From contig JAQBPN010000019.1 of the NCBI GenBank assembly GCA_028287505.1, positions 1 to 64,000 on the forward strand: 64,000 nt of DNA, written 5' to 3'. This document shows positions 4,248-13,628 of this stretch, piece after piece. The notes below the pieces were generated by a model. The model did no database searches and was not told the DNA's origin. It saw only the letters and a program-made list of their open reading frames with translations. How positions within the stretch are numbered: the first letter of the stretch is position 1; each line of letters begins with the position of its first letter. A program made the position numbers and the translations under genes. Source of the DNA: Fibrobacterota bacterium. Lineage in GTDB: Bacteria; Fibrobacterota; Fibrobacteria; UBA11236.

Positions 4248-5110
4248 AAGGCATCATCCTGGCGGGAGGCGCGGGAACGCGCCTCTATCCGCTTACGTCG
4301 GTGGCGAGCAAGCAGTTGCTTCCCATCTATGACAAGCCGCTGATCTTCTACCCCCTGGCCACCCTCATGCTAGGCGGCATCAAGGAATACCTCCTGATTT
4401 CCACTCCCGAGGATACGCCCCGCTTCCGGAGCCTGCTCGGCGACGGCAGTCCCTGGGGCATCAAAATCGAATATGCCGTGCAGGACAAACCGGACGGCAT
4501 CGCCAAGGCCTTTCTCATCGGGGAAAAATTCATCGGCAAGGATCCGGTCACCCTCATTCTGGGGGACAATCTCTTCTACGGATCCATGAAGCTGGACGAC
4601 ACCATCCGCTCCTTCACCAGCGGGGCCAAGGTCTTCGGCTATTACGTCAAGGACCCGGAACGCTACGGCGTGGTGGAGTTCGACGGGGATCGGACCGTCA
4701 TCGGTCTGGAAGAGAAGCCCAAGGTTCCGAAATCGAACTACGCGGTGCCCGGCCTGTACATCTACGACAACAAGGTCGTGGAGATGACCCGGAACCTGAA
4801 GCCTTCGGCGCGCGGCGAATTGGAAATCACCGACCTCAACATCGCCTATCTGAAACAGGGCAAGCTCTCCGTGCAATTGCTGGGACGCGGGATCGCCTGG
4901 CTGGATACGGGAACCCATGCCAGCATGCTGGAAGCCAGCACCTTCATCTACACCTTGGAAGCGCGCCAGGGCCTGAAGATCGCCTGCCTGGAAGAGATCG
5001 CGTACTTGCGGCAGTTCATCACCTTGGAACACTTCAAGGACACGGTGGGAAAAATGCCCAGGTCCCCTTATAAGGACTATCTGTTGCAGCGCTTCAAGGG
5101 CGAAGTCTAG
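4244..5110 (+). CDS. rfbA: Glucose-1-phosphate thymidylyltransferase
   Basis: It makes dTDP-glucose from glucose-1-phosphate and dTTP, the first step towards dTDP-rhamnose and related sugars. The nucleotide-binding signature [11 protein letters not shown] starts near residue 8, followed by [10 protein letters not shown], the LGDN metal/nucleotide motif, and ELEITDLN with WLDTGTH further on. The start is taken as TTG at 4244, because (M)[13 protein letters not shown] is the canonical N-terminus and gives 288 aa, the usual RmlA length. An upstream in-frame ATG would run deep inside adk. No rfbB, rfbC or rfbD is present in the window, so the remaining pathway genes must lie elsewhere. Confidence 0.93.
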
Positions 5111-5179
5111 CCCGTTCCGGGGCGGGGTCTGGTGCACCCCATCGTCAGGAAATACCCCGAGACGGTCCTCCAAGGGCCA

Positions 5180-5195
5180 TGTGATGCTCCTCACA
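5180..5195. promoter_or_regulatory. CRP/FNR-type palindrome (perfect TGTGA-N6-TCACA)
   Basis: TGTGATGCTCCTCACA is an exact match to the CRP core. It lies about 144 nt upstream of the GTG of the gene at 5339. Equivalent sites precede the next two genes of the cassette at similar distances (6027-6042 perfect, 10900-10915 degenerate). Confidence 0.6.
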
Positions 5196-5210
5196 CCCGT
5201 TTGATTTGGG

Positions 5211-5230
5211 AAAATGCCCGACGGCATTTT
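5211..5230 (+). terminator. Hairpin downstream of rfbA
   Basis: AAAATGCC-CGAC-GGCATTTT forms a perfect 8-bp stem with a tetraloop, about 100 nt after the rfbA stop. The 3' arm ends in TTTT. It is a plausible intrinsic terminator for adk-rfbA, although its GC content is modest. Confidence 0.5.
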
Positions 5231-5234
5231 CATG

Positions 5235-5306
5235 AAAATTCCGGCAATTGCTCTAATGGCTATAGGCGCCGGGTCTTTTCCGCGAGCGGCTTTTAATTAA
5301 TTTTCA
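5235..5306 (+). promoter_or_regulatory. Conserved upstream block, copy 1
   Basis: The segment begins AAAATTCC, continues through GCTCTAAT and GGTCTTTT, and ends in the AT block TTAATTAATTTT. It aligns with 6082-6150 and, more loosely, with 10966-11047. The AT block ends 32-33 nt before the start codon in this copy, and 30-32 nt before it in the other two. It is probably the shared promoter of the cassette. No canonical -35/-10 is obvious. Confidence 0.5.
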
Positions 5307-5338
5307 GCCGTAGATTCTTTAGCGATAGGCCGCGACCC

Positions 5339-5956
5339 GTGTTCAAATCAATCGTCTTTCTCTTCGGCATTTTAATCCTGTTTTCGGCTTCCCAGGGCGC
5401 CGTCGCCAAGCCTTTGGACCAGGCTTCGGTGAAACGGCTCTATAATGACGGCGATTTCGATCCGGCCGTCAAGCTGTTGGAGGATTTCCAGAAGACCCAT
5501 TCCAAGTACACGCGCGAAGAAAGCCTCATGGTCTACAAATACCTCGGAGTGATGTATTGCGCGGATCAGGGCACGCGGGAAAAGGGCAAGACCTATTTCT
5601 ACAAGCTGCTGAAGATCGATCCGGAAGCGAAAATCCTGGATATGTACGTGAGCATCGTGGTGCAGGATATTTTCAAGGGCACCCTGGACGAGCTGATGGG
5701 CCAGAAGGGTTATGCCGCCGGCCGCGAGGACCGGTTGACCGGCCCCGGAACCAACCCGGGACAAGAAGCCATGCCGGCCCGCAAGGAGACGGACAAGGAT
5801 GCGAAGCCGGAGAAAATCGCGGCGGGCAATAATCATGCGGCCTATTGGTGGATTGGCGGATTGACGGTGGCGGCCGGTGTGGCCGGCGGCTATTACCTGT
5901 ACGCGCAATCGGGTTCGGATACGCCCGGCGAGACGGATATTCTGGTCAAGCCCTGA
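5339..5956 (+). CDS. Small secreted TPR-like protein with C-terminal membrane helix (paralogue 1)
   Basis: Unknown function; 205 aa. It has an N-terminal signal peptide (about residues 1-23, ending AVA), then an alpha-helical TPR-like core (KLLEDFQKTHSKY, then YKYLGVMYCADQ and YFYKLLKIDPEAK). A charged linker and a C-terminal hydrophobic helix (about 168-190, WWIGGLTVAAGVAGG) follow. The core is almost identical to that of the gene at 11078-11809, including silent sites. The GTG start is chosen because it yields the signal peptide directly; no strong Shine-Dalgarno is seen. It probably sits in the envelope anchored by its C-terminus. Position and shared upstream sequence tie it to the giant lipoprotein that follows. 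Confidence 0.8.
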   Translation: MFKSIVFLFGILILFSASQGAVAKPLDQASVKRLYNDGDFDPAVKLLEDFQKTHSKYTREESLMVYKYLGVMYCADQGTREKGKTYFYKLLKIDPEAKILDMYVSIVVQDIFKGTLDELMGQKGYAAGREDRLTGPGTNPGQEAMPARKETDKDAKPEKIAAGNNHAAYWWIGGLTVAAGVAGGYYLYAQSGSDTPGETDILVKP

Positions 5957-6026
5957 GACCGTTGGCCAGTTGGCCCGCTGGATAACGGACTCTTGGGCGG
6001 ACTTCCCGAGGGCGGCCGCTTTTCCA

Positions 6027-6042
6027 TGTGATGGGCATCACA
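6027..6042. promoter_or_regulatory. CRP/FNR-type palindrome (perfect TGTGA-N6-TCACA)
   Basis: TGTGATGGGCATCACA is an exact CRP-core match located 140 nt upstream of the ATG at 6182. Its spacing to the conserved block (6082-6150) nearly equals that of the first copy. Confidence 0.6.
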
Positions 6043-6081
6043 CGGGGATTCCGGATCCATGGACCCGATCGCCTTTTTTCG

Positions 6082-6150
6082 AAAAATTCCTCAGATGCTC
6101 CAATAGATGAAGAGATCCGGTCTTTTAGGGAAGCCTCAATTAGTTAATTT
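6082..6150 (+). promoter_or_regulatory. Conserved upstream block, copy 2
   Basis: It aligns with 5235-5306: AAAAATTCC, GCTCCAAT, CCGGTCTTTT, then ATTAGTTAATTT, which ends 31 nt before the start codon. A GGTAAGG Shine-Dalgarno-like sequence follows at about 6169. Confidence 0.5.
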
Positions 6151-6181
6151 CAACCCTCTCTTGAACAGGTAAGGCACCCGC

Positions 6182-9100
6182 ATGCGCTCGCTACTCAAAA
6201 AATGTTCCCTGCTCCTTCTCGCTTTGGCGGCCCTGGCGGCGATCTGGTCCTGCAACAACACGGCTACGGATTCGGATCAGTACCTGACCTGGGACCTGAC
6301 CGATGCCTACAAGTCCTACGACACCGTGTCCATCAAACTGGTGGATGTCAAAGACCCCTCCCTGGTCTACGAGGTGGTGTGGAACGCAGGCATTCCCGAT
6401 CCCGGGAATTTCCCCAAGTACAAGTTGACGGCGGCCAAGGACAAGGATTTCATCATCCAGATCCGCTGCTACAATGCCAAACATGAGCTGTTGCTCTCCA
6501 AGGACATAGAGGTGGATGGCGCCAAGACCACGGCGCCCGTGATCCTGATGACGGATGTGCGCTTGCTCGGCCTGACCGCGACTCCCGGATCCCTGGATCC
6601 GGCATTCAATCCCAATAAGTCCTCCTATGCCGTCCAGGTGGGGGACTCCGTGGCTTCCATCACCCTCACCGCCACGCCCATCGATGTGGGCAATGTCCTG
6701 ACCATCGATCAGAAGCTGTGCGCCTGGGGCCTGGGGAATACTCTGAACCTGGATTCCGGGGCCAACGTATTCGGCCTGACCGTGGCGACCAAGGACGGCA
6801 AGCTTTCCAAGAACTATGAAGTGGTGGTGACGCGCGGAAGAATCATCCCTCCCGAAGAGGTGGTGAGCGTGACCCTGCGGGACAAGAGCCTGACGCTCTT
6901 CACCGGCGATGGGCACACGGCGCAGAAGGCGACGGTGGTTCCCGCCGGGGCCCTGATGCAATGGTCCAGCCAGGACGAGAACGTGGTGCGCGTGGACGGC
7001 AAAGGCAATCTCACTCCGGTGGGCCCGGGAACGGCCAGGGTGACGGTCACCGCCGGGACTCATACCGATGCGGCGGATATCACCGTGAAAAAGGACCCGC
7101 CCGTCCTCAATCCCGGGCCGAACCAAGGGGTGAAAATAGGCGGAGAGGCGACCTTCCATGTTTCCCTGACCCAGGAACATGGGACCATCGTTTCCTTCAA
7201 GTACAGTCTGGACGGGGATACCGCCTGGGACAACCTTTCCGATACGACCACGGCCCCGGCTTCCATCATTCTGAAGCATGTGTACCCCACCGCCGGATTC
7301 TTTACCGCGTATTTCTATGCGAAAGACAGCGAAGGCAATATCGCCACCGCTTCCTGCACCATCCACGTAAGCGATGCGGCGATCCTCGTGAACATCCTTT
7401 CCCCCGGCAAGGATACCCTGGTGAATTCGACCCCCATCACCCTCAAGTATGAAGTGAACGGGAACCTGCATAGCGAGTCCAGGGATCTGACGGAAGGGAC
7501 GAACGTCGTATCCGTGGATTCCGGGGACGGGGCTTCGGTGAAAGTGACCTTGGACACCAAGCCGCCTACGGCTCCGAACGTCACCTCGACCACGCCCACG
7601 CCCACGGCCAACCCCAAGCCCACCTGGACCTGGACCCCGGGCGGTGGAGGCGATGGCACTTTCCGGGCCCGCCTCGATTCGGCGGATCTGAGCGCGTCTC
7701 CGTCCATTACGGTGAAGACCTACACCTCCGGCACCAACCTGAGCGCGGGAGATCACATTCTGTACGTGCAAGAGCGCGATTCGGCCGGCAACTGGTCGGC
7801 CTCGGGCAGTTTCCTTGTGACCATCCAGGGCGCCGACATCACGCCGCCCAACGCTCCGAACGTCACCTCGACCACGCCGACGAACAATACCAAGCCCACG
7901 TGGACCTGGACTTCGAACGGCGGTGGCAATGGAACGTTCCGGACGCGTCTGGATGCAACCGACTTGAGCGCGGCCCCGTCCGTCACGGTGACGACGTACA
8001 CGCCGGCAACTGCCCTGGGCGCGGGGGATCATTTCCTTTACGTGCAGGAGCGGGATTCGGTGGGGAACTGGTCGGCTTCGGGCAGCTTCAAGGTGACCAT
8101 CCTGGCCGCCGATGTGACCCCGCCCAATCCGCCCATCGTGACCGGCACTTCGCCGACCAACACCGCGCCCAAGTGGAGCTGGTCCACCGGCGGCGGCGGC
8201 GGTTCCGGGACCTTCCGTTACAAACTGGACGATTCGACCCTGGCGGGAGTCTCGGATACGAAAGAGGTGGCCTATACCCTGGTGGCGGCCCCGGTCTCGG
8301 GAACCACCTATAAGCTTTACGTGGCGGAAAAGGATTCGGCCGGGAACTGGTCGGCTCCGGCCATGCGCGCCATCTATTATGACTTGAGCAAACCCAGCGT
8401 CGCCATCCTGACGCCCCAGACTTCCGGCACCTATCTGACCCGGAATGCCACGGTGGCGTTGTCCGGAACCGCCAGCGGGCCCAATACCATCGTCAAGGTG
8501 AGCTACAAAATCAACAACGCGGCCACGGCGGACGCGGTCCTCTCCGCGGGCAATTGGTCCATCGCGAGCGTGGCGACCGTGGAGGGTACGGCTACCATCG
8601 TGACGGTTGTCGCAACCGACAATCTCAACAATACGGGCGAGGCCACCCTTACCGTGATCAAGGACAACACGCCCCCGACCGCGCCTTCCATCACCGCGTT
8701 TCCCGCCACGCCCACCAATGCGGCCAAGGGAAGCTGGGCCTGGAACGCAGGCTCGGACGGCGCCTCGGGCAGCGGCCTGAACGGAAGCTACCGGTACAGC
8801 CTGGACGGCGGCGCCACCTGGACGGTCATCACGGCGGCCCTGGTGAACAATCTGACCCTGGCGGAAGGGGACAACACCTTCAGCCTGCAGGAGCAGGACT
8901 TGGCGGGCAATTGGTCCGTTTCGGCCACCAATGTGGTCAAGGCCGATAGGATCGCTCCGGCTATAGCCGTCACCAGTCCCGCCAGCCCCGCATCCCTGAG
9001 CACCAACCACGTGACCCTCTCCGGAACCGTTTCCGATGCCGGCGCGGGCGTGCTGTCCGTAACCGTCTCCGGTCAGGTTTCCGGAAACGGTACCGCCACG

Positions 9101-10753
9101 GTCACGGGTAACACCTGGACTACGGGGGATCTGGTCCTGAAATCGGGCGCCAATGCTTTGGTCGCGACCGCGACGGACAAGGCGACCAACACCAACACCG
9201 CCAGCCTGTCCGCCACCGTCACGGTGGCCGTGCCCGTGGTGGTCATCACCTATCCGGCCAACAATGCCCTCACCAACAAAGACACCATCACGGTCAAATA
9301 CACCGTGGACGGGGGCGCGGAAACCAGCAAGCTCTTCTCCGCGTTGACCGAGGGCAACAATACCCTGACCATCACCTCTCCGGCGAACTCTGTGGGGGTG
9401 ACCGGTTCGGCCAGCGTCACAGTCCTCAAAGATGCCACCGCGCCGAACTTTCCCACCGTGACCATCGTGAAGACGCCGACAAATACGACTCCCGGTTGGA
9501 ACTGGGGTCTCGGCAGCGACAATGCAGGCGGTTCGGGCGTGGCTTCCGTCTGGGAATACCAATTGACTGGCGCCACCAGTACGACGGGCACGCTCGCCAC
9601 AAACAGCTTTTCCCTGTCCGGGGCCGGAGAAGGCACCTATAATTTCACGGTACGGCAGCTGGACAAAGCCGGAAACCGGTCCGCGTACAGTGCCGTCGCG
9701 ACCATCGTGGTGGACAAGACTCCGCCCTCGGTCACCCTGAACTCGCCGACCAACGGCCTGGTCACCTCGGCCACTTCCGTGACCCTGAGTTGCACCATCG
9801 ACGGGACCACCACCACCAGCAGTCCGACCCTGAGCCCGGGCGCAAACCCCTTTTCCTGCTCCAAGACGGATTCGGCGAACAACACCACCACCAAGACCTC
9901 TACGGTGTACTACGTGGCCAAGACCCTTTTCGTGAAGACCGCCCCCACGGGCACGGGAGATGGCATGAGCTGGACAAATGCCATGGGCAGCATCCAGGGG
10001 GCGTTGGCGAAGGCCGCGAGCGGATGGCAGATCTGGGTCGCGGCAGGGCACTATTCCACGGATGTGGCGAACAGCGGCATCCTGGTGCCTTCCAATGTGT
10101 CGTTTTACGGAGGCTTCCCGGTGGCCGGAACCGCCAAAAGCATTTCCGATCGCACCTTTGTGGCGAACGACACCACCTACATTCAGGATGGTTCCAACTA
10201 TCATAAAATCTTCGAAATTACCGGAACCGAGGCCTCCCCCCTGCAGAACATCACCATCGACGGTTTTCAGTTCAGCCTGGACTACTCCACATCCGCCATC
10301 AGTATGAACTACGCCAAAGCGATTACTCTCAAAAACCTGGTCTTCCACCCCGTCGCCCAGAACTCCGGAGCGGGGATAACCGGCTATCTCGCGGACTTCA
10401 CCTGTGATAATGCGTTGTGGACGGGCTTCAACAACGAATACAACCTCATCAATTCCAGCGGTTCCACCATGTCGCTGAGCAATTCCACCTTTGTCGGGAA
10501 TTCCGTATTCTCAGAAGGCGGCCCCCCCCATTTCGTCATCCTCGACTATTCGACGAAGGCCACCCTCAACAACAACAAATTCCTGGATGCCCCGACGAAC
10601 GGCGGGATGACCCTATGGTGGCGCCCGTTCGGGACGACCGGTGAACTGGACATCATCGGCTGCAGTTTCAAGGGCGGTACGCACGCCTACGATATGATCC
10701 AGAATTATGACCTGAACGTGGTCTATACCGGGAACAATATCTTCACTCCCTGA
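6182..10753 (+). CDS. Giant surface lipoprotein with Ig-like repeats and C-terminal beta-helix
   Basis: 1523 aa, function unknown, adhesin-like architecture. A signal peptide with a lipobox-like site (IWS-C24) is followed by a cadherin-like beta-sandwich (about 128-220) and a bacterial Ig Big_2-type domain (about 230-305). A PKD-like domain (about 306-402) comes next, then repeated Ig-like modules of about 95 residues. These modules share the motifs PPxxPxVTxTxPT, TWTWT and LYVQERDSxGNWSASGSF. The last about 280 residues (from 1242, TLFVKTAP) look like a right-handed parallel beta-helix, a fold common in carbohydrate-binding or lyase-like surface proteins. It lies between two paralogous membrane proteins and shares their upstream region, which suggests co-regulation and perhaps display or assembly by them. 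No catalytic motif was recognised. Confidence 0.85.
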   Translation: MRSLLKKCSLLLLALAALAAIWSCNNTATDSDQYLTWDLTDAYKSYDTVSIKLVDVKDPSLVYEVVWNAGIPDPGNFPKYKLTAAKDKDFIIQIRCYNAKHELLLSKDIEVDGAKTTAPVILMTDVRLLGLTATPGSLDPAFNPNKSSYAVQVGDSVASITLTATPIDVGNVLTIDQKLCAWGLGNTLNLDSGANVFGLTVATKDGKLSKNYEVVVTRGRIIPPEEVVSVTLRDKSLTLFTGDGHTAQKATVVPAGALMQWSSQDENVVRVDGKGNLTPVGPGTARVTVTAGTHTDAADITVKKDPPVLNPGPNQGVKIGGEATFHVSLTQEHGTIVSFKYSLDGDTAWDNLSDTTTAPASIILKHVYPTAGFFTAYFYAKDSEGNIATASCTIHVSDAAILVNILSPGKDTLVNSTPITLKYEVNGNLHSESRDLTEGTNVVSVDSGDGASVKVTLDTKPPTAPNVTSTTPTPTANPKPTWTWTPGGGGDGTFRARLDSADLSASPSITVKTYTSGTNLSAGDHILYVQERDSAGNWSASGSFLVTIQGADITPPNAPNVTSTTPTNNTKPTWTWTSNGGGNGTFRTRLDATDLSAAPSVTVTTYTPATALGAGDHFLYVQERDSVGNWSASGSFKVTILAADVTPPNPPIVTGTSPTNTAPKWSWSTGGGGGSGTFRYKLDDSTLAGVSDTKEVAYTLVAAPVSGTTYKLYVAEKDSAGNWSAPAMRAIYYDLSKPSVAILTPQTSGTYLTRNATVALSGTASGPNTIVKVSYKINNAATADAVLSAGNWSIASVATVEGTATIVTVVATDNLNNTGEATLTVIKDNTPPTAPSITAFPATPTNAAKGSWAWNAGSDGASGSGLNGSYRYSLDGGATWTVITAALVNNLTLAEGDNTFSLQEQDLAGNWSVSATNVVKADRIAPAIAVTSPASPASLSTNHVTLSGTVSDAGAGVLSVTVSGQVSGNGTATVTGNTWTTGDLVLKSGANALVATATDKATNTNTASLSATVTVAVPVVVITYPANNALTNKDTITVKYTVDGGAETSKLFSALTEGNNTLTITSPANSVGVTGSASVTVLKDATAPNFPTVTIVKTPTNTTPGWNWGLGSDNAGGSGVASVWEYQLTGATSTTGTLATNSFSLSGAGEGTYNFTVRQLDKAGNRSAYSAVATIVVDKTPPSVTLNSPTNGLVTSATSVTLSCTIDGTTTTSSPTLSPGANPFSCSKTDSANNTTTKTSTVYYVAKTLFVKTAPTGTGDGMSWTNAMGSIQGALAKAASGWQIWVAAGHYSTDVANSGILVPSNVSFYGGFPVAGTAKSISDRTFVANDTTYIQDGSNYHKIFEITGTEASPLQNITIDGFQFSLDYSTSAISMNYAKAITLKNLVFHPVAQNSGAGITGYLADFTCDNALWTGFNNEYNLINSSGSTMSLSNSTFVGNSVFSEGGPPHFVILDYSTKATLNNNKFLDAPTNGGMTLWWRPFGTTGELDIIGCSFKGGTHAYDMIQNYDLNVVYTGNNIFTP
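7565..8134 (+). repeat. Two tandem 285-bp coding repeats (95-aa Ig-like modules)
   Basis: The segments starting near 7565 and 7850 are strongly similar at nucleotide level (CTCCGAACGTCACCTCGACC in both), 284-285 nt apart and in frame. A third, more diverged copy starts near 8130. Recombination between units could change protein length. Confidence 0.7.
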
Positions 10754-10899
10754 TCGTTCCGGGCCGGGGTAACAATCGGGTTACCCAAGCCGGGCTACGT
10801 CCCTTCTAACGCTTCCTGTCAGCGGCCGCACAGGGCGGCCAGGGCTCCGGCGGAACAGGGCCTGGAGGATTTCGGGCCTCCCATGCGCGTCCAACTTCA

Positions 10900-10915
10900 C
10901 GTAATTTCGCTCACA
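10900..10915. promoter_or_regulatory. Degenerate CRP-type site
   Basis: CGTAATTTCGCTCACA keeps the right half TCACA and 3 of 5 positions of the left half. It sits about 135 nt before the AT block and 163 nt before the GTG at 11078, slightly further than in copies 1 and 2. It is called mainly because of its position. Confidence 0.35.
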
Positions 10916-10965
10916 GCGTGGTTTTCCTGACCCCGCCCTAATTTCCCCAGAATCGGGAGTTTTCA

Positions 10966-11047
10966 ACAATTTCCTCATCCGTTCTCCAACTGCAGTCCAC
11001 CGGCTAAGGCCGCAGCCGGTCAACCGGTTAGGGGATTAATTAAGTTT
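10966..11047 (+). promoter_or_regulatory. Conserved upstream block, copy 3
   Basis: CAATTTCCTC, TTCTCCAAC and the terminal ATTAATTAAGTTT align loosely with the blocks before 5339 and 6182. The AT block ends 30 nt before the GTG. A GATGAGGCG Shine-Dalgarno-like segment follows at 11062-11070. Confidence 0.45.
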
Positions 11048-11077
11048 GATCCCATCATCAACGATGAGGCGCAACCC

Positions 11078-11809
11078 GTGAACAATGCGTTCAAAAAGAC
11101 GGTCCTTTTCCTAGGCCTGACAGTTCTTATTCCGCATTCCACCCATGCCGCAACCAAATCTGCGTCCAAGTCCGCGACCAAACCCGTGGGCACTTCCGCT
11201 CCGGCGATTTCGGGTCCGGCCAAATCCCAGGCTTCGTCCACGCCTGCGCGGCCTGTGATGCAATCCCTGGATCAGGCCATGGTCAAGAAGTACTACAATG
11301 ACGGCGATTTCGATCAGTCCATCAAGCTGCTGGAGGAATTCCAGAAAACCCATTCCAAGTACACGCGCGAAGAGAGCCTGATGGTCTATAAGTACCTGGG
11401 GGTGATGTATTGCGCCGACCAGTCCACGCGGGAAAAGGGCAAGACCTATTTCTACAAGCTGCTGAAGATCGATCCGGAAGCGAAAATCCTGGACATGTAC
11501 GTGAGCATCGTGGTGCAGGATATTTTCAGGAGCACCCTGGACGAACTGTTGGGCCAGCGGGGTTTGCCTCCCTCCGGCCGGGAAGACCGCCTGACCGGGC
11601 CCGAGCCCAAACCGGGCCAGGAAAGCTTCCCCGCCCGCAAGGAACAGGACAAGAATCCCGAGCCGGAAAAAATCTCGGCGGGCAATCACGCGGTCTATTG
11701 GTGGATTGGCGGATTGGCCGTGGCGGCGGGAGTGGCCGGCGGCTATTACATCTACGCGAAATCGTCCCCCAGTACGCGCAAGGACGTCGATATCCCCGTT
11801 CCGCCATGA
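11078..11809 (+). CDS. Small secreted TPR-like protein with C-terminal membrane helix (paralogue 2)
   Basis: 243 aa, function unknown. It is homologous to the gene at 5339-5956 from VKxxYNDGDFD onward, with the core and C-terminal helix (WWIGGLAVAAGVAGGYY) almost unchanged. It has an additional Ala/Ser/Thr/Lys-rich low-complexity segment (about residues 24-65) after the signal peptide. At DNA level a run of more than 60 nt around 11430-11500 is identical to the first copy, including third-codon positions. This implies recent duplication or gene conversion. The GTG start has a GAGG Shine-Dalgarno-like sequence. It closes the three-gene cassette. Confidence 0.8.
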   Translation: MNNAFKKTVLFLGLTVLIPHSTHAATKSASKSATKPVGTSAPAISGPAKSQASSTPARPVMQSLDQAMVKKYYNDGDFDQSIKLLEEFQKTHSKYTREESLMVYKYLGVMYCADQSTREKGKTYFYKLLKIDPEAKILDMYVSIVVQDIFRSTLDELLGQRGLPPSGREDRLTGPEPKPGQESFPARKEQDKNPEPEKISAGNHAVYWWIGGLAVAAGVAGGYYIYAKSSPSTRKDVDIPVPP

Positions 11810-11849
11810 GGCTTCGGGAACGCGCCGCCGGTATCCGGCGAAGCCGTTT

Positions 11850-13628
11850 TCAGGCCCGCCGGCGCTCCAGCAGCGCCCGCACCCTTTCCGCCTGGTCCGC
11901 ATCCAGGAAGCGGCGGGACAGAACGAGGATCTCCTCCAGGAAGCCGACCAGCGCCGCGTTATCCCCCATCCGGCCATAGCCTTCCACCAGCTTGTCCCAG
12001 ACGGCCGTGTCCAAGGGCCGCTCCCGGAACCACTCGCGGTATATCGATCGCAAGCGCCCTTCGTCGCCCAGGCGGCGGCACGCTTCGGCCTGCAAGGCAT
12101 GGGGATCGAGGAAGGCGAAGCGATCGGCGGGAATGCGATCCGCGCATTCCAGGGCTTCTCCCGGGCGGGCCAGGGCCAGAAGGATGCGGGACCGTTCGGC
12201 CAGGCAGAGCGCCCGCATCAGATCGAGGTAACCTTGCCATGATCCCCCGGCCAGGTCCTGGCGGAACGCGCGGTTGAGATCGGTATTCAGGCCCATTCCC
12301 AGGCGGACCGGCGGGTAGAAGTGCGCGTACAGATCGCGCAGGGCCTCCGCCCCCGGAGTCCGGGCGGGGCCGTTTTCCAGGGCCTGCAGGCTTTCCAGAC
12401 AATGACGGGATGCGTCCAACGCTTCGTCCCAACGCCCGCGCAGGCTGCACAGGCGCGTGCGGAAGTAGGCCCCTATCGGTTCCGGCCGATCCCCCTCATC
12501 CAGCATCAGCCCCAGCATCCTGTCGGCCGAGGCCAGGACCTCCCCCGGATGGTCTTCGATCAAAGACAATAGGGAAGCCGGTACCGTCTCCGCGTCCAGG
12601 CCGGGCAGGCCCCCCGAGCGCGCTTGCAGTTCCGCCAGGGTTTCCGGCATGGCATAGGCGGCGCCCAGCACCCGGAGTTTGACGACGGCCTTGAGGGACG
12701 CCGCGGCAGGGGTAACGTATGAGATACTGGGCGTCGAGGGCCCGGAGGCGCTCTCGCGGCCGGCCGTATCCAGCAAAGCCCGGATCTGTTCCGATTTCGA
12801 ATGGCGGGCCACCGCCTTCCGGGCTTCCCCGGATGCGGCCTCGATGCGCGCCGGATCCGCCAGCAAAGCATCCAACGTCTTCTCGAGAGTGTCCGGTTCA
12901 TACCGGAAATAGTGGCTGCCTTCCTGGAAGAGAATGCCCGCCTCCTGGTTGGAGGCTTCCACCAAGGGCACGGCCCCGCAGGCCATGGCCTCGTAAAGGC
13001 GCATATTGGCTTCGCCCCGGACCGAATAGTTGAATACCAGGCGGCTGCGGTTGAGCACGTCCACATAGGCCGGGCCGAAAGCCTGTCCCAGGTGCAGAGC
13101 GCGGTCCGTTCCCCACCTGCCCAGGCGGGCCAAGAGCCGATTGCGCTCCCGGTGCAGGCCCGCGTTCAGGTTGCCGCAGAAGGAAACATCCAGGTTACGG
13201 GGTCCGCTCCGCCAGGCGAAGGTCTCCGGGTCGTGGCCGAACAGGGGCTGGTGATGGACGTTGCCGATGCCGGCCTTGCGCAGAAGGCGGTATCCGGGCC
13301 AATCCGTGAAACAGAAATCGAAGAGGGGGCAAAGGTCCGGCAGATAGCGCAGGCATACGTTCCAATCGGTGATGAGCAGGATCTTGACGCCCGGAAAGGA
13401 GGCGATGTCGCAGGGTAAGGGCAGGTACTCGGGAGTGGAAATGATGAGCGCGTCCGGCTTTTCCGCGGCGGGAATGAGCGGGAGGATATCCGCCAGGTCG
13501 CGGCGTTCTTTTTCCGCGCGCCAGGCGGGGTCGGGGCCGCCGGGAAGGTATGCGCCGAATGTGCGCAGGGTGTGGCCCGCGGCGGGAGGGAGATAAACGT
13601 TCGTGAGGACCCGGGCCATGGACCACAT
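11850..13628 (-). CDS. CgeB-like glycosyltransferase with C-terminal helical (TPR-like) extension
   Basis: About 592 aa. The first about 310 residues resemble the CgeB/DUF3880-type group 1 glycosyltransferases: STPEYLPLP, ITDWNVCLRYLPD, CGNLNAGLHRERNRLL, then the nucleotide-sugar site NMRLYEAMACGAVPLVE. The C-terminal half is Ala/Leu-rich, alpha-helical and TPR-like (RSRILLALARPGEALECADRI). The open frame continues 350 nt further upstream, but that part overlaps an inverted-repeat element. The start is therefore set at ATG 13628, preceded by CGGAG ten nt away; ATG 13619 (MARVLTN) is an alternative. The donor and acceptor are unknown. Confidence 0.8.
   Translation of the reverse strand: MWSMARVLTNVYLPPAAGHTLRTFGAYLPGGPDPAWRAEKERRDLADILPLIPAAEKPDALIISTPEYLPLPCDIASFPGVKILLITDWNVCLRYLPDLCPLFDFCFTDWPGYRLLRKAGIGNVHHQPLFGHDPETFAWRSGPRNLDVSFCGNLNAGLHRERNRLLARLGRWGTDRALHLGQAFGPAYVDVLNRSRLVFNYSVRGEANMRLYEAMACGAVPLVEASNQEAGILFQEGSHYFRYEPDTLEKTLDALLADPARIEAASGEARKAVARHSKSEQIRALLDTAGRESASGPSTPSISYVTPAAASLKAVVKLRVLGAAYAMPETLAELQARSGGLPGLDAETVPASLLSLIEDHPGEVLASADRMLGLMLDEGDRPEPIGAYFRTRLCSLRGRWDEALDASRHCLESLQALENGPARTPGAEALRDLYAHFYPPVRLGMGLNTDLNRAFRQDLAGGSWQGYLDLMRALCLAERSRILLALARPGEALECADRIPADRFAFLDPHALQAEACRRLGDEGRLRSIYREWFRERPLDTAVWDKLVEGYGRMGDNAALVGFLEEILVLSRRFLDADQAERVRALLERRRA

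Follow-up and report, generated by a model that had tools for sequence, protein, structure and literature searches.

Local duplication within a genus-wide set of TPR and giant lipoprotein gene pairs with candidate CRP control in Fibrobacterota

INTRODUCTION

Do three neighbouring genes with one promoter layout form a single regulated system, or does the repeated layout have another origin? The question is raised by a locus in a 64,000-nt stretch of DNA from a Fibrobacterota bacterium (the window; GenBank assembly GCA_028287505.1, contig JAQBPN010000019.1, positions 1 to 64,000). An earlier note, made from the sequence alone, described two membrane paralogues and a giant lipoprotein, each gene preceded by a CRP-type site, a conserved block and an AT motif, and proposed a dedicated surface system under triplicated catabolite or redox control. 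We compared the locus with the remainder of its genome, with congeners and with other genomes of the phylum. On balance we lean towards reading it as one member, duplicated locally, of a family of two-gene operons that runs through the genus and would encode a CRP-controlled surface lipoprotein and a TPR envelope partner.

RESULTS

The cassette occupies positions 5111..11849 (no strand assigned). The flanking genes are convergent: rfbA ends at 5110, and a glycosyltransferase-type gene on the minus strand ends at 11850. This junction is nearly empty (9-129 nt) in G001, G002 and G003, contains one TPR gene in G004 and contains three genes in the window genome. The congeners keep the gene order CRP ... 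adk - rfbA - glycosyltransferase, the contig of G005 having been followed to a point short of the glycosyltransferase gene. The cassette represents an insertion at the rfbA/glycosyltransferase junction. A mobile-element origin was considered and rejected, as the inserted interval carries no transposase. A search of the plus strand gave no terminator-like site. In each of the five congeners (L172-L176) rfbA has the CRP gene ~8-9.5 kb upstream; in the window genome the CRP gene is on a different contig from the cassette. Upstream of adk, positions 3-2912 of the window encode a large protein that is conserved in the congeners; it contains FG-GAP-like sequence and ends in a C-terminal sequence of the sorting type (..FHLFPSPVRG..RFGVIR).

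The first gene of the cassette (5339..5956, plus strand) encodes TPR protein 1, a 205-aa protein with a signal peptide, a TPR-like core (~27-133) and a C-terminal transmembrane (TM) helix. TPR protein 2 (243 aa; 11078..11809, plus strand) has the same three elements, is 75% identical to the first and has no lipoprotein gene downstream; the two are the membrane paralogues of the earlier note. AlphaFold places the helices of the core at 28-133, mostly with pLDDT >90, and the nearest folds are mostly TPR, none of them with E < 0.001. A sequence search of the PDB with the TPR family returned nothing convincing. Between the two genes lies that of the giant lipoprotein (1523 aa; 6182..10753, plus strand), which has the lipobox AAIWS|C. 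Its N-terminal beta-domain is common to the lipoproteins of the family and is a predicted beta-sandwich (residues 11-70, pLDDT about 90 or more). A fold search with both models gave no match of E < 0.001. Cadherin-like, Big_2 and Big_13 repeats follow, and then a C-terminal beta-helix-like region; the homologue on contig C39 matches Pfam Beta_helix.

The TPR proteins with a C-terminal TM helix form a large family, with 14 members in the window genome and 10-19 in each of five congeners. When an HMM was run over 151 genomes of the phylum, full-length members proved to be almost confined to the genus and a single further genome from its order. A sister genus contributed two genomes with one match each to the TPR core, and outside the order there were only weak matches, mostly to the C-terminal TM segment. 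We scanned 81 members from nine genomes for a neighbouring lipoprotein gene. The automatic search placed a lipobox lipoprotein of 330-1706 aa at -29..+225 nt from 57 of the 81 TPR genes, and two further pairs (L083 and L130) were added by eye, giving about 59/81. L097, one of the 57, is probably a false hit, and the later alignments and the Mantel test exclude it. A Cys after a hydrophobic stretch, with A/S/G/T/N at -1, was found in 57 members. Trp, which is unusual at position -2 of a lipobox, occupies it in 21/57 members (IWS|C and FWA|C, for example), including the lipoprotein at 6182 of the window.

In many pairs the two genes overlap by 4-14 nt, and the 225-nt gap between TPR gene 1 and the lipoprotein gene is the largest among all pairs. 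A single promoter precedes the TPR and lipoprotein genes at C39, in G005 and at most other loci. From this arrangement we take the unit to be an operon of one TPR gene and one lipoprotein gene. The trio of the earlier note is not itself the unit; what the genus carries, in up to about 20 copies per genome, is the pair. The partners co-diversify: TPR and lipoprotein distances correlate with a Mantel r of 0.70 (null maximum 0.16), a correlation to be expected where the two genes of an operon are inherited jointly, even without contact between their proteins.

Members without a lipoprotein gene comprise fusion proteins that combine the TPR core with a predicted outer-membrane beta-barrel (L025 on G000:C52, L109, L114, L115, L119 and L123), TPR proteins with a long C-terminal extension and TPR genes beside cell-wall genes. 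The barrel matches are to PF13505 and fall below the Pfam curated cut-off. These fusions point to the periplasm or outer membrane as the probable location of the TPR domain. In several genomes the fusion genes adjoin a GT9-like glycosyltransferase gene. One TPR gene without a lipoprotein (L027, G000:C15:16408-17163) has a transglycosylase-domain gene on one side and an FHA + SLT gene on the other. The TPR-TM protein might instead belong to a signalling module, in which it would regulate the lipoprotein or sense envelope stress for it, and not be a partner in assembly or display. Its short C-terminal tail behind the TM helix resembles that of membrane sensors, the TPR genes stand ahead of the lipoprotein genes, and orphan TPR genes such as that at window 11078 occur. 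We nevertheless consider a sensor role improbable: the genes beside the pairs show no recurring signalling domain and no recurring sigma or anti-sigma gene, and the barrel fusions argue against it.

All three genes of the cassette have a CRP-type site upstream, two perfect and one degenerate, as had been described (the palindromes carry no strand assignment). CRP1 (TGTGATGCTCCTCACA, 5180..5195) lies in promoter 1, 143 nt before the GTG at 5339, and has a perfect counterpart at -145 in the G005 orthologue. CRP2 (TGTGATGGGCATCACA, 6027..6042) lies in promoter 2, 139 nt before the ATG at 6182. Site 3 in promoter 3 (CGTAATTTCGCTCACA, 10900..10915) has two mismatches and is 162 nt before the GTG at 11078. 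In the 6.07-Mb genome the perfect palindrome TGTGA-N6-TCACA occurs five times, twice in the cassette, and its reversed control never; when up to one mismatch is allowed, the counts are 49 and 4. The genome therefore contains a real population of CRP-type sites. Site 3 alone is not significant, because two-mismatch palindromes are expected ~13.5 times in the window and 8 were seen; its one support is its position (-162), since the syntenic gene of G004 has a site at -163, likewise with two mismatches.

The sites are also enriched across the family. Within 300 nt upstream of the start, 13 of the 81 TPR members have a site with at most one mismatch, compared with a mean of 0.41 (maximum 2) for a null of 29 palindromes made from permuted half-sites; no such site falls in the first 300 nt inside the same 81 genes. 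The 13 are all among the 59 lipoprotein-paired members and none among the 22 unpaired (Fisher P 0.016, a guide only since the sequences are related). When two mismatches were allowed, the result was less clean, with 31 members compared with a mean of 7.2 and one permuted control reaching 29. In the window genome, 4 sites precede the 14 TPR and 10 lipoprotein genes, compared with 0.06 expected (P about 5e-7). The distance from palindrome to start ranges from 32 to 188 nt across the family. Since a near-perfect site was found in only 13/59 pairs, CRP control of the pairs would not be universal. Elsewhere in the genome, one perfect palindrome (L005, G000:C113:104883) precedes a T6SS hcp gene with a tail-sheath gene upstream, another (L004, G000:C100:35770) lies beside a VgrG-like gene, and a one-mismatch site (L043, G000:C39:112263) is 128 nt before a flagellin gene.

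A regulator suited to these sites is encoded on contig C18 (L044), which agrees with the catabolite (CRP-type) control that had been suggested. It has a cNMP-binding domain (PF00027, E 8e-29) and a TTRETVSR recognition helix, and it is 88-98% identical across the genus. Its best PDB match of similar length is CRP of M. tuberculosis (Rv3676, PDB 3d0s). We examined whether the palindromes might be bound by another protein of the CRP/FNR family, sensing redox state or NO, in place of cAMP-CRP. The genome does encode at least two such proteins with similar recognition helices (TTRETVSR in L044 and TTRESVSR in L045). On the other side, the half-site is TGTGA, not TTGAT, L044 keeps the cyclic-nucleotide loop GEMALLDGEPRSA and has no cysteine with which to hold an iron-sulphur cluster, and three class III cyclase domains (PF00211, over the cut-off; predicted to make cAMP or cGMP) are present in the genome. 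Binding by another regulator is consequently very improbable in our view, and FNR-type redox control, the other option of the earlier note, was rejected on the half-site and on the lack of cysteine in this best-matching regulator.

An AT box precedes each start: TTAATTAATTT in promoter 1 (5293..5303, plus strand, 35 nt before the start), TTAGTTAATTT in promoter 2 (6140..6150, plus strand, 31 nt) and TTAATTAAGTT in promoter 3 (11036..11046, plus strand, 31 nt). The motif reported earlier was thus present at all three genes, at distances of 31-35 nt and not the 30-33 nt given. The consensus TTARTTARKTT has five copies in 6.07 Mb, three of them in the cassette. With 6 copies of the reversed control, a similar number, it counts as rare and not over-represented; its placement is non-random. 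The box was rejected as a generic -10 element: before 165 other genes TATATT is enriched and TAATTA is not. Another copy (L179, G000:C86:25759) is followed by CCAGG-CGAT, as in G004, and precedes a YceI-like gene.

Promoters 1 and 2 are homologous over -160..-27 (z 13.6). The conserved block described before all three genes was strong between these two promoters and weak in promoter 3 (z 2.9-3.2). The DNA of the TPR cores is 89% identical over 297 nt (window 5415-5711 and 11268-11564). The last 70 nt of promoter 1 are homologous to G004 (z 10.7), and the TPR gene of G004 resembles TPR protein 2 in its protein and promoter 1 in the DNA of those 70 nt, a mixed likeness that suggests exchange between copies or gene conversion. 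The promoter 2 leader, before the lipoprotein gene, is similar to that of the C39 TPR gene (AACAGGTAAGGC); the match is short, with a z of 3.3, and its score lies within the shuffle range (maximum 34). The simplest reading of this arrangement would be that promoter-TPR units were duplicated in tandem and that the middle TPR gene was lost. Because promoters 1 and 2 are homologous throughout, the triplicate promoter is for the most part a by-product of tandem duplication. The triplicated control proposed earlier is to be read in this sense; promoter 3 would serve a TPR gene that no lipoprotein gene follows.

The identical layout could be explained entirely in this way, as the mere footprint of a recent tandem duplication in which promoters 2 and 3 have no dedicated regulatory meaning and transcription starts mainly at promoter 1. 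The homology of promoters 1 and 2 and of the TPR cores, and the single promoter at most other loci, are what such a footprint predicts. CRP2, however, has stayed perfect within surroundings that have diverged from promoter 1, and the family-wide enrichment includes non-homologous promoters such as that at C39. We therefore regard a pure footprint as possible though rather unlikely.

DISCUSSION

The reading towards which we lean, a locally duplicated pair from a CRP-controlled operon family, draws on site statistics, a regulator, operon pairing, co-diversification, duplication and insertion, all of which are present in the sequence. According to this reading, gene A would encode a secreted, membrane-anchored TPR protein and gene B a giant outer-membrane lipoprotein with Ig/cadherin-like domains. 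CRP bound to cAMP would sit on the palindrome and tune transcription. The lipoprotein may serve at the surface as a stalk, adhesin or binding protein, and the TPR protein may contact it in the envelope as a dedicated partner for assembly, anchoring or display. Tandem duplication of an ancestral promoter-A-B unit, probably with loss of the A gene in the middle, would have left the order promoter-A, promoter-B and promoter-A. The dedicated surface system of the earlier note is in this sense probable. More tentatively, the TPR protein of each operon, which lacks a barrel, might co-evolve with the one giant lipoprotein encoded beside it and escort that lipoprotein to the surface, and the large repertoire of CRP-tuned pairs might amount to switchable surface stalks, a lineage-specific display system.

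The observation is of wider interest than first stated as it exposes a genus-wide family. The family is large, lineage-restricted and putatively linked to cAMP-CRP, and in a Fibrobacterota genus that has been little studied it would account for a visible share of the surface repertoire. Its pairs offer a ready test of whether barrel-less TPR partners can direct lipoproteins to the surface, and the cassette illustrates duplication as a source of a 'triplicated promoter'. A literature search on Fibrobacterota CRP or such lipoproteins found no described system, in agreement with the earlier note; the gene pair appears to be undescribed and its regulation of a known kind.

In terms of function, the closest parallel is Slam/NilB (DUF560, 'type XI' secretion), in which a periplasmic TPR domain precedes the DUF560 barrel (PMC8406197) and which has cognate surface lipoproteins (PMC8406197, PMC5449769). 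In both, a TPR domain, periplasmic in Slam/NilB and predicted to be so here, is encoded with a lipoprotein (57-59 of the 81 members here), and a dedicated partner role is proposed. In contrast to Slam/NilB, the window TPR proteins have 205-243 aa and one C-terminal TM helix, neither matches a Pfam barrel such as DUF560, the phylum is different and the lipoproteins are giant Ig/cadherin arrays. Because the barrel is missing, we place the cassette outside Slam/NilB and treat the likeness as one of possible working only. The TPR cores also match weakly the profile of TssQ-family T6SS-associated lipoproteins (NF038027; E 7e-5 and 1.2e-5). Membership was rejected at 23.3 and 25.7 bits against a curated NCBIfam cut-off of 65 bits; the window TPR proteins, unlike TssQ, have no lipobox, and no T6SS genes adjoin the cassette. 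The cAMP-CRP regulons of E. coli CRP and M. tuberculosis Rv3676 (PDB 3d0s) share with the family the TGTGA-N6-TCACA sites, a cNMP-binding regulator and a RETV recognition helix, and differ in that the target here is a lineage-specific surface module with sites 32-188 nt before the start codon. Finally, the lipoprotein resembles large bacterial Ig-like adhesins and stalk proteins in its domain composition (the Big_2, Big_13 and cadherin-like Pfam families), and is distinguished from them by its predicted lipid anchor and by an N-terminal beta-domain that is specific to the family and goes with a TPR partner.
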